The notes under the pieces: model-generated
Database searches by the model: none
Told to the model about the DNA's origin: nothing
What the model saw: only the letters and a program-made list of their open reading frames with translations
Part shown: piece by piece, positions 10,593 through 16,356 of the stretch
How the letters are laid out: every line of letters starts with the position of its first letter
Numbering within the stretch: the first letter of the stretch is position 1
Origin: Pseudomonadota bacterium
Lineage (GTDB): Bacteria; Pseudomonadota; Alphaproteobacteria; SP197
Reading direction: 5' to 3'
DNA: 64,000 nucleotides
Assembly: GCA_039028155.1 (NCBI GenBank)
Contig: JBCCIS010000025.1
Span: 1 to 64,000 of the forward strand
Position numbers and translations under genes: made by a program

Positions 10593-10718
10593 ATGAAAGT
10601 TGTCAATTCGATCAAGTCGATGAAGACACGCCACCAGAAGTGCCGGGTGATCCGGCGCAAGGGCCGCGTCTACGTCATCAACAAGCAAAATCCCCGCTTC
10701 AAGGCCCGCCAGGGCTGA
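10593..10718 (+). CDS. rpmJ: 50S ribosomal protein L36, zinc-ligand-free type
   Basis: A 41-residue basic protein that begins [19 protein letters not shown] and ends NPRFKARQG, the standard alphaproteobacterial L36 form. It contains a single Cys, so the CxxC...C...H zinc site of classical L36 is absent. A perfect GGAGGAAAG lies 5 bases before the ATG. L36 sits near helices of 23S rRNA in the large subunit. It stands alone, between the Gre-type gene and glcD, not in the spc operon. Confidence 0.93.
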
Positions 10719-13589: not shown

Positions 13590-14876
13590 ATGGAAACACG
13601 CTTCGATCTTGTCAGGCTCGCCGACCCGCACGTCAAGGAGGCCGAACGCATCTTGCGTACGTGCGTGCACTGCGGTTTCTGCCTGGCGACCTGCCCGACC
13701 TATTTGTTGCTGGGCGACGAGCGCGATAGCCCGCGCGGCCGAATCTACATGATCAAGGACATGCTGGAGAAAGACCGTCCAGCCGACGCATCGACCGTGC
13801 GTCATGTCGACCGCTGCCTGTCGTGTCTCTCCTGCATGACGACGTGCCCGTCGGGCGTCAACTACATGCACCTGGTCGACCACGCGCGCCTGCACATTCA
13901 GGAGACCTATCAACGCCCCGTCAGTGAAAAGGCACTGCGCCGATTGCTCGCGTGGCTCTTGCCCCATCCCGGACGATTCCGTCTCGCCCTTGTCGGCGCG
14001 GTGTTGGCGCGCCCGTTCGCCGCGCTCATGCCGCCAAAGGTGCGTCATCTGTTGGCCATGGCGCCGCGCCGGCTGGCCGAGCCGTCGGCCTATGACCGGC
14101 CCGCGGTTCATCCTGCCCAGGGCGAGCGCCGGAAACGCGTCGTGCTGTTGTCTGGTTGCGCGCAACAGGTCCTGACGCCGGCGATCAACGCGGCGACGAT
14201 CCGCTTGCTGACCCGGCTTGGCTGCGAGGTTATCGTCGCGCGTAAGTCCGGGTGCTGTGGCGCGCTTGTCCATCACATGGGGCGCGAGGGCGATGCTCAG
14301 GCGGCGGCCCGGCGCAACATCGAAGCGTGGGACGCCACTGGACCGGTCGATGCCGTCATCGCCAATGCGTCGGGCTGCGGCACACAGTTGAAGGAGTACG
14401 GCTTTTTGTTGCGCGACGACCCCGAGTGGGCCGATCGCGCCGCCGCGTTTTCTGAGAAGGCGCGCGACGTCAGCGAGGTCCTCGCCGAACTCGATCTGCC
14501 GCCGACACGGCTGTCGGGCCTGCCGGTGCTCGCCTATCACAGCGCGTGCTCCCTGCAGCACGGTCAGCAGATCCCATCGCTGCCTGGCGACCTTCTGAAG
14601 CGCGCGGGGTTCGAGGTGCGCGATGTGCCGGAGGGCCATATCTGCTGCGGTTCGGCCGGGACCTACAACCTCGTTCAGCCGGAGCTCTCGGCGCGGCTGC
14701 GCGAGCGCAAGGTCGGCAACATCCGTCAAACCGGCGCCCAGGTCGTCGCCGCCGGCAATGTCGGCTGTATCGTCCAGATCGCCGGCGGCCTCGACAAACC
14801 GGTCGTGCATCCCGTCGAGCTGCTCGACTGGGCCCAGGGCGGACCGAAGCCGCCGGCCTTGTCAGACGCCCGCTAA
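13590..14876 (+). CDS. glcF: glycolate oxidase iron-sulfur subunit GlcF
   Basis: A 428-residue protein with two N-terminal 4Fe-4S motifs, CVHCGFCLATCPTYLL and CLSCLSCMTTCPSG, and two CCG-type cysteine-rich domains (KSGCCGALVHHMG and HICCGSAGTYN). This is the electron-transfer and membrane-docking subunit of glycolate oxidase. It is the last catalytic gene of glcDEF and is followed 53 bases later by the ArfA-like gene, which may share its transcript. Confidence 0.94.
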   Translation: METRFDLVRLADPHVKEAERILRTCVHCGFCLATCPTYLLLGDERDSPRGRIYMIKDMLEKDRPADASTVRHVDRCLSCLSCMTTCPSGVNYMHLVDHARLHIQETYQRPVSEKALRRLLAWLLPHPGRFRLALVGAVLARPFAALMPPKVRHLLAMAPRRLAEPSAYDRPAVHPAQGERRKRVVLLSGCAQQVLTPAINAATIRLLTRLGCEVIVARKSGCCGALVHHMGREGDAQAAARRNIEAWDATGPVDAVIANASGCGTQLKEYGFLLRDDPEWADRAAAFSEKARDVSEVLAELDLPPTRLSGLPVLAYHSACSLQHGQQIPSLPGDLLKRAGFEVRDVPEGHICCGSAGTYNLVQPELSARLRERKVGNIRQTGAQVVAAGNVGCIVQIAGGLDKPVVHPVELLDWAQGGPKPPALSDAR

Positions 14877-14929
14877 ATCTCTATCTCCAAGCCGTTCCGG
14901 CTCAACTCTCGTATCGATGGAGGTGCGAC

Positions 14930-15166
14930 ATGAAACGTCCGACAAAGCGGGCGAGCCGCCGGAATGCCGCCGCCAAGGCCTTGGCCAAGGGGCGCTACCG
15001 GCAACGGATCGTCAGAAACCGCAAGATCTACACGCGCAAAGGCCGCCGTCCCCAGGACAGCGGCCTTTCTTCTTTGATAACTATGCCGACGACGCGAGAG
15101 ATGCCGGATAAGCGCGCCTATTTGTTGGCGCTCTTCAGCCACTCAAATGCGAGCTGCATACCGTAG
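14930..15166 (+). CDS. ArfA-like ribosome rescue factor, encoded on a predicted non-stop transcript
   Basis: The frame encodes 78 residues, but an intrinsic terminator (15038-15074) lies inside it, so the main product should be a strongly basic peptide of about 48 residues ending near QDSGLSS. The core NAAAKALAKGRYRQRI, then NRK and YTRKGRR, aligns with E. coli ArfA: NA, AL, (F/Y)RQR(V/I), N(K/R)K and YxRKG are shared, while the GKGS linker of ArfA is missing. ArfA recruits RF2 to ribosomes stalled without a stop codon. TGGAGGT lies 6 bases before the ATG. The readthrough tail overlaps the end of the convergent gene. ArfA is known mainly from beta- and gammaproteobacteria. An unrelated small basic protein remains possible. 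Confidence 0.68.
   Translation: MKRPTKRASRRNAAAKALAKGRYRQRIVRNRKIYTRKGRRPQDSGLSSLITMPTTREMPDKRAYLLALFSHSNASCIP
15038..15074 (+). terminator. intrinsic terminator inside the ArfA-like reading frame
   Basis: AAAGGCCGC (15038-15046) pairs exactly with GCGGCCTTT (15060-15068); after one C/A mismatch, GTCC (15048-15051) pairs with GGAC (15055-15058) around a 3-base loop. The T-rich run TTTCTTCTTT (15066-15075) follows. The frame from 14930 has no stop before, within or just after the hairpin; the first is at 15164. Transcripts ending here are non-stop. It would also terminate glcDEF transcripts. Confidence 0.85.
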
Positions 15167-15498
15167 AGTTCCGAGACCTCGACAAAGTAGTCGAGATCAC
15201 CCTGCAGATCGCGCGCCGTCATGCCGCAGTCGAGCATCTTCTGAATGACGATCAGGCCCACGGTGTTGGTCTGGGCTTCGGTTGGCTTATCGGCGAAGAA
15301 CACGGGATACAACTGGTCGCGATCCCAATCGGTGGTGTTCTCGACCATGCAGGTAACGAGTTTGTCGGTATCGGCGGGGGACTGGGCAGCTGGCCCATCG
15401 ATCCGCGCAAAGACCATCGCAGCCGCCATCGTAACGAGCAGAGCGCGACAGAGCCGTCCTGCCGGGTGCTTGGTATGGGACTTCATGATCCGTGACAT
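15118..15498 (-). CDS. hypothetical secreted protein
   Basis: A 126-residue protein with a basic start and a hydrophobic stretch (ALLVTMAAAMVFA) ending near an Ala-x-Ala-type cleavage region (GPAAQS), so probably a Sec signal peptide and a periplasmic mature domain of about 85 residues. The mature part has two Cys (LVTCMVEN and LDCGMTAR) that may form a disulfide. No family is recognised. The start could also be the ATG at 15486. Its 3' end overlaps the readthrough tail of the convergent ArfA-like gene by 49 bases. Confidence 0.65.
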   Translation of the reverse strand: MSRIMKSHTKHPAGRLCRALLVTMAAAMVFARIDGPAAQSPADTDKLVTCMVENTTDWDRDQLYPVFFADKPTEAQTNTVGLIVIQKMLDCGMTARDLQGDLDYFVEVSELYGMQLAFEWLKSANK

Positions 15499-15795: not shown

Positions 15796-16356
15796 ATGAC
15801 TTTTAGACGCCTTTGCTTCGCAGCACTTGCCGCCTGCGCCTTGATCCTACCGGTTCAGAGCATGGCGGCCCAGGACGATCCCCGGCTCGACGATCTCTTC
15901 ACCCGCTTGCACGCGACCGGTGATCAGGCGGAGGCGCAAGTCATTCAGAGCTACATCTGGTCGATCTGGACCGAGGCCAACGACGATCAGCTCAATCGGC
16001 TGATGTACGAGGGCACCCGCGCCATGCAGGTCGGCGATCTGGATCTGGCGATCAAGATGTTCTCCGACGTCATCGACATCGCGCCCAAGTTTGCTGAAGC
16101 CTGGAACAAGCGCGCGACGGTTTACTACATGGTCGGGTCCTATGATGAATCGATCGCCGATTGCATGGCCGTGCTGGACCTGGAGCCGCGCCACTTCGGG
16201 GCGCTATCCGGTTTGGGCCTGATCTATACGGCGCGCGAGGAAGACGAGAAAGCGCTTGAGTGGTTCAAGGCGGCGCTGGATCAGAACCCGCATATGCCGT
16301 CGATACGCGACCAGGTCGACGTGCTCGAAGAAAAACTGCACGGCAAAGCGATCTGA
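15796..16356 (+). CDS. periplasmic tetratricopeptide-repeat protein
   Basis: A 186-residue protein with a signal peptide (residues 1-25, hydrophobic LCFAALAACALILPVQS then AA) and about three TPR units from residue 70 on: LMYEGTRAMQVGDLDLAIKM, FAEAWNKRATVYYMVGSYDE and FGALSGLGLIYTAREEDEKA. TPRs mediate protein-protein contact; no catalytic residues are seen. Its 3' end faces pyk with only 20 bases between. The preceding 297 bases hold no gene I can support. Confidence 0.8.
   Translation: MTFRRLCFAALAACALILPVQSMAAQDDPRLDDLFTRLHATGDQAEAQVIQSYIWSIWTEANDDQLNRLMYEGTRAMQVGDLDLAIKMFSDVIDIAPKFAEAWNKRATVYYMVGSYDESIADCMAVLDLEPRHFGALSGLGLIYTAREEDEKALEWFKAALDQNPHMPSIRDQVDVLEEKLHGKAI

Follow-up and report, generated by a model that had tools for sequence, protein, structure and literature searches.

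A tiny, previously unannotated gene that starts at position 14930 of the window (the whole 64,000-nucleotide stretch of alphaproteobacterial DNA analyzed here) most likely encodes an ArfA-type factor that frees stalled ribosomes. From the sequence of the gene and of its relatives, we consider it highly probable that the product belongs to the ArfA family, where it would stand out by its short linker, and that it recruits RF2, is made from a non-stop mRNA and is held down by trans-translation.

The arfA-like gene and its conservation

The features of the locus, with the evidence for each, are the following:

13590..14876, forward strand: glcF-like gene, the upstream conserved neighbor, in all nine loci
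14919..14925, forward strand: Shine-Dalgarno sequence GGAGGTG, 4 nt 5' of the ATG, from the sequence
14930..15076, forward strand: ArfA-like coding region that the non-stop mRNA is expected to contain, from nine-copy conservation and the ArfA profile match
14963..15046, forward strand: core shared with ArfA, N..AxxL...YRQRI..NRK---xYTRKGR, from hhalign and hmmsearch alignments
15038..15068, forward strand: in-frame hairpin of 9 bp, 1 mismatch and 4 bp with a loop of 3
15069..15078, forward strand: T-rich run CTTCTTTGAT, from the sequence, likely the transcript end
15077..15166, forward strand: in-frame extension up to the first stop, not conserved
15796..16356, forward strand: gene for a TPR-like protein, the downstream conserved neighbor, in all nine loci

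The preliminary description of this DNA had placed an ATG at 14930 behind a strong ribosome-binding site, with a stop at 15164, and the sequence bears this out: the frame encodes an ArfA-like peptide (MKRPTKRASRRNAAAKALAKGRYRQRIVRNRKIYTRKGRRPQDSGLSS...), and its first in-frame stop is TAG at 15164–15166. The ATG stands 53 nt past the stop of the glcF-like gene. An mRNA ending in the T-run would give a product of about 47–49 residues, and the coding region is accordingly expected to comprise about 47–49 codons and to end in or just past the hairpin and T-run; the extension beyond it is probably rarely translated. The GGQ catalytic domain, the hallmark of ArfB, is absent from the 78-aa frame opened by this ATG.

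A search of 16 genomes of the window's order turned up nine clear copies of the gene, the window's included, each with E about 1e-7 or better and all from one GTDB family. Identity to the window peptide is 55–96% for the eight orthologues. Across the nine copies the dN/dS of the core is mostly 0.1–0.5, which indicates purifying selection as far as the hairpin, and no constraint is visible past it. Two copies from the same genus have cores that are 96% identical and tails after the T-run that are unrelated, so that the protein under selection seems to extend no farther than the hairpin. In all nine loci the arfA-like gene stands between glcF and the TPR gene (both names are our own reading of the sequence), and a pyruvate kinase gene comes next in most of the loci that reach far enough. 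These glcF and TPR neighbors are found in the window's family only.

Between the arfA-like and TPR genes lies a convergent ORF of 126 aa (15118–15498, reverse strand); the orthologous loci gave no match to it, and it is present in the window genome only. Elsewhere in the window, a 41-aa ORF (10593–10718, forward strand), named by eye, resembles ribosomal protein L36.

The in-frame hairpin

The hairpin of 9 plus 4 bp and the T-rich run that the preliminary description had reported within the frame were recovered. Its outer arms are AAAGGCCGC (15038–15046) and GCGGCCTTT (15060–15068), and its inner arms GTCC (15048–15051) and GGAC (15055–15058). Folding of 15020–15090 gave -23.5 kcal/mol (z -3.5), a value that one of 200 shuffled sequences equaled.

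In all nine copies, the window's among them, YTRKG is followed at once by a G+C-rich hairpin that lies in frame and ahead of the first stop, an arrangement that would give an ArfA-type non-stop mRNA. The 9-bp stem is paired in every copy and includes one A-U/G-C double change; covariation statistics within the family are weak, too weak to count alone. The T-run is modest in the window and short (TTTCGATTC) in most orthologues. A simple scan called no promoter or terminator at the window locus; the hairpin was probably missed because the terminator scan limited loops to at most 8 nt and disallowed internal mismatches.

Sequence relationship to ArfA

Searched on its own, the window peptide had no credible match in Pfam, NCBIfam or the PDB. 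A search of the window genome with PF03889 returned nothing above the cut-off, and the protein falls short of the membership rule of that family, a single protein above the curated cut-off. As there is no such single-protein match and the profiles nevertheless are specific for ArfA, we file it as an ArfA-like variant and not as a member of PF03889.

The profile of the nine copies scored 26.6 against ArfA (maximum of 300 shuffles, 18.8) and, by itself, ranked six ArfA sequences first in the PDB, at E 0.03–0.06. It also picked up related ORFs across the Alphaproteobacteria, and a second profile was built from 22 proteins, the rows of which we chose. Against gammaproteobacterial ArfA this profile reached an hhalign score of 45.0, compared with no more than 14.1 for any of 200 versions with shuffled columns and 18.3 for the reversed profile, and it still scored 40.6 without the rows that carry a KGK-type linker. 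Among 177,635 distinct PDB sequences only ArfA chains were credible matches (E 8e-9 to 2e-8), the next match having E 0.6. Because the profile held no ArfA from outside the class, this match does not depend on the choice of rows. The reading as ArfA, at the outset an impression from shared motifs, has in this way gained the support of profile searches that single out this family. A BrfA chain was not among the profile matches up to E 10 in the PDB, a set that BrfA may lie outside.

Relatives in other alphaproteobacterial families bear KGKGS or a similar linker (MKKRNPIAEDLRSPKYKKRIVKPKKGKGSFKRKKK; ...ARKGKGSYRRRSKHPQGG...), and six of the seven linker-bearing proteins pass the Pfam ArfA cut-off, the seventh being short by 0.2 bits. 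The window branch, in which three linker residues are missing, escapes both Pfam and NCBIfam. Since the linker-bearing relatives pass, the window family is best read, on these alignments, as a branch of the ArfA family without the three linker residues. The absence of the GKG(S) linker from the window peptide, seen in the preliminary description, is confirmed.

At the position of E. coli F25 all nine copies have an aromatic residue, Y or F, and the window peptide, with YRQRI, contains the RF2-contacting segment (an aromatic at F25 and R.R[VI]). The YTRKGR tail is retained and invariant within the window family; the GKG of KGKGS is missing. Plasmid and phage copies were not found using the window peptide, and a search of phages with an alphaproteobacterial peptide that bears KGKGS was likewise negative.

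Distribution in the class and alternation of hairpin and early stop

With the 22-protein profile, 44 of 385 alphaproteobacterial genomes were hit at E 0.01, about 30 of them convincingly; these class-wide counts depend on our choice of rows. We divided 36 loci by the distance of the first stop from the Y of Y.RK, at least 63 nt (late) or at most 54 nt (early). Late stops occur in 21 of the loci, from nine families, and early stops in the other 15, from ten families, one of them unplaced. Mean hairpin strength relative to shuffled sequences was 3.7 SD for late-stop loci versus 0.14 for early-stop loci, and hairpin strength tracks the missing early stop (Mann-Whitney p 5.5e-6 over loci and 3.5e-4 when each family contributes a single value). 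In the nine families without an early stop, a hairpin of unrelated sequence and varying position is in place; in the ten families with an early stop, a strong hairpin is absent. About half of the families therefore rely on an early stop instead of a hairpin, and non-stop synthesis is not a constant property of the family. Textbook terminators with long T-runs are found in several families (loci L085, L089, L091, L092 and L096), and the f39 hairpin has no T-run. The preliminary description had proposed to search related genomes for a hairpin before the stop: the orthologues keep it, and other families have one of different sequence.

Early-stop ArfA-like ORFs without a strong hairpin (L088, L093, L100, L103, L105 and L107–L111, many in genomes of 0.8–2.3 Mb) apparently encode an ArfA free of tmRNA control, to judge from their sequences. 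SmpB was found in all but one of these genomes. Loss of tmRNA as the explanation for the early-stop members was rejected: 36 of 37 genomes have SmpB (the remaining one is 71% complete), and its retention in nearly all early-stop genomes means that loss of trans-translation does not explain the early stops. Replacement of ArfB by ArfA likewise lacks statistical support. ArfB is somewhat rarer across the class where an ArfA-like gene is present, not significantly so (7 of 32 genomes with an ArfA-like gene versus 122 of the 353 without one; p 0.17 in a Fisher test).

On balance we lean towards an overlooked, class-wide branch of ArfA from which GKG is missing in most lineages. Non-stop control would have been gained or lost repeatedly in it, by way of unrelated hairpins, and some members with a normal stop would have been freed from tmRNA control in genomes that kept SmpB.

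Rescue machinery and proposed mechanism

The window genome has a tmRNA (alpha_tmRNA, E 1e-73) as well as SmpB, RF1, RF2 and ArfB, the last as a separate gene (L117). V198 and F217 of E. coli RF2 form the pocket that receives F25 of ArfA (PMC6299226). RF2 of the window genome retains the residues aligned to both, and RF1 has, by eye, Ala at the second pocket position, the one aligned to F217. Three layers of rescue are predicted from this gene content: trans-translation, ArfB and the ArfA-like factor. With ArfB present, the ArfA-like factor would be an additional backup there.

For the RNA end, the regulation, the binding to the ribosome and the recruitment of RF2 we reason by analogy with E. 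coli ArfA and B. subtilis BrfA. E. coli arfA has a stem-loop, and both premature termination and RNase III cleavage have been reported for it (PMC8012679). In B. subtilis brfA the terminator is in frame, and the peptide is tagged and degraded unless trans-translation fails (PMC6881298). The arfA-like mRNA would end at the in-frame hairpin, by intrinsic termination or by RNase cleavage, and ribosomes would reach its 3' end without meeting a stop codon. While tmRNA-SmpB is working, the nascent ArfA-like peptide would be tagged and degraded; only when trans-translation fails would it accumulate, bind the ribosome and recruit RF2. Termination is favored as the source of the RNA end because a T-run is present and the stem is short. 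No residue of KGKGS or of the tail is essential in E. coli ArfA (PMC6299226), so the missing GKG need not abolish function.

Alternative explanations

The most serious alternative retains an ArfA-family factor and a non-stop mRNA and differs in the nature of the hairpin, which would be a processing site for RNase III or a similar enzyme, or a stop for an exonuclease. A stem of 9 plus 4 bp, as in the window, is short for RNase III, and the long T-runs of the textbook terminators in several families also speak against processing. We regard processing as rather unlikely, yet as a real alternative, since the T-run is weak in most members of the window family; the f39 hairpin without a T-run and the double report for E. 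coli arfA (PMC8012679) point the same way.

The factor might also be a rescue factor of independent origin, in the manner of BrfA and ArfT, that resembles ArfA by convergence. The peptide is short, basic and of low complexity, its linker is missing, alanine is not found opposite E. coli A18 in the profile alignment, and BrfA has itself been argued to be convergent with ArfA (PMC6881298). We nevertheless hold convergence to be improbable, given a column-by-column alignment over about 35 positions that scores far above shuffled controls, canonical KGKGS members in the same class that pass the Pfam cut-off, and a PDB search that returned ArfA chains only. Rescue activity of the window peptide is a prediction from its sequence, and a gene 53 nt past the glcF stop could share its transcript; the product might be a small basic protein whose role concerns ribosomes or RNA in some other way, and the hairpin only the terminator of the glc operon or of the arfA-like gene itself, overlapping the frame by chance. 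This we consider very improbable, because the similarity is specifically to ArfA, because hairpins of unrelated sequence replace the early stop in nine families, and because the glcF and TPR neighbors occur only in the window's family, and because the stop-bearing relatives lack a hairpin.

Comparison with known rescue factors and significance

ArfA (YhdL; E. coli and other beta- and gammaproteobacteria; PF03889) is believed to adopt an ordered structure only when bound to the ribosome. It is likewise a small basic peptide with the core N..A..L..P.[FY]R.R[VI]...K..Y.RKG, and in E. coli, as here, a stem-loop lies within the frame before the stop and the genome encodes tmRNA/SmpB and RF2. The window family differs in its shorter N-terminus, its different hairpin sequence and the lack of the GKG of KGKGS, a segment that in E. 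coli lies in the mRNA channel. ArfB (YaeJ, NF006718), the usual backup rescue factor in Alphaproteobacteria, shares that role with the proposed factor and is also encoded in the window genome; it is, however, a 140-aa GGQ hydrolase of unrelated sequence that does not need RF2. BrfA (YqkK, Bacillus subtilis) has in common with our proposal an intrinsic terminator in frame, a non-stop mRNA and control by trans-translation (PMC6881298). Factors of this sort show low compatibility between species (PMC6881298). ArfT (Francisella tularensis) is similar as a basic factor of about 40 aa that recruits release factors; unlike the window peptide, which keeps the aromatic residue, it carries no hydrophobic residue where ArfA has F25, and its frame contains no terminator (PMC6299226).

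In a published survey that covered over 15,000 genomes, arfA was recorded in none of 2,376 Alphaproteobacteria (PMC11633108), and according to a review only some beta- and gammaproteobacteria have ArfA (PMC8012679). We found no paper describing an alphaproteobacterial ArfA in a search that most subscription papers and preprints lay outside; the nearest report concerns a SAR11 phage with an annotated ArfA domain (PMC12753301). The proposal of an ArfA backup in this class, made in the preliminary description, is supported and at the same time refined: the factor extends across the class, some members have KGKGS, others have an early stop and no hairpin, and the window genome has ArfB besides. 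If our reading is true, the reported absence of ArfA from Alphaproteobacteria would be a gap in detection, attributable to the short length, the deletion of three residues and the lack of a stop codon, a lack that can also hide a gene from annotation. It would also offer a candidate backup to those alphaproteobacteria that have no ArfB and provide a natural ArfA in which the linker that lines the channel is missing. Genes with a hairpin and no early stop could then be compared with genes of the opposite kind, to learn how often trans-translation comes to control such factors and for what reason.

Further sequences with a possible relationship to ArfA

Locus L041 (G092 contig 3) encodes a protein that is related to the N-terminal half (KRRSPVAAKLADPRFRPRVVEKSP) and lacks the Y.RK tail. 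The unnamed family DUF7230 (PF23876) gave no match to the window protein itself, and L120, the one other proteobacterial DUF7230 locus seen, has neither the Y.RK element nor an evident in-frame hairpin. Ten of the 22 alphaproteobacterial ArfA-like proteins match DUF7230 (best E 2.2e-8), which suggests that this family is related to ArfA.
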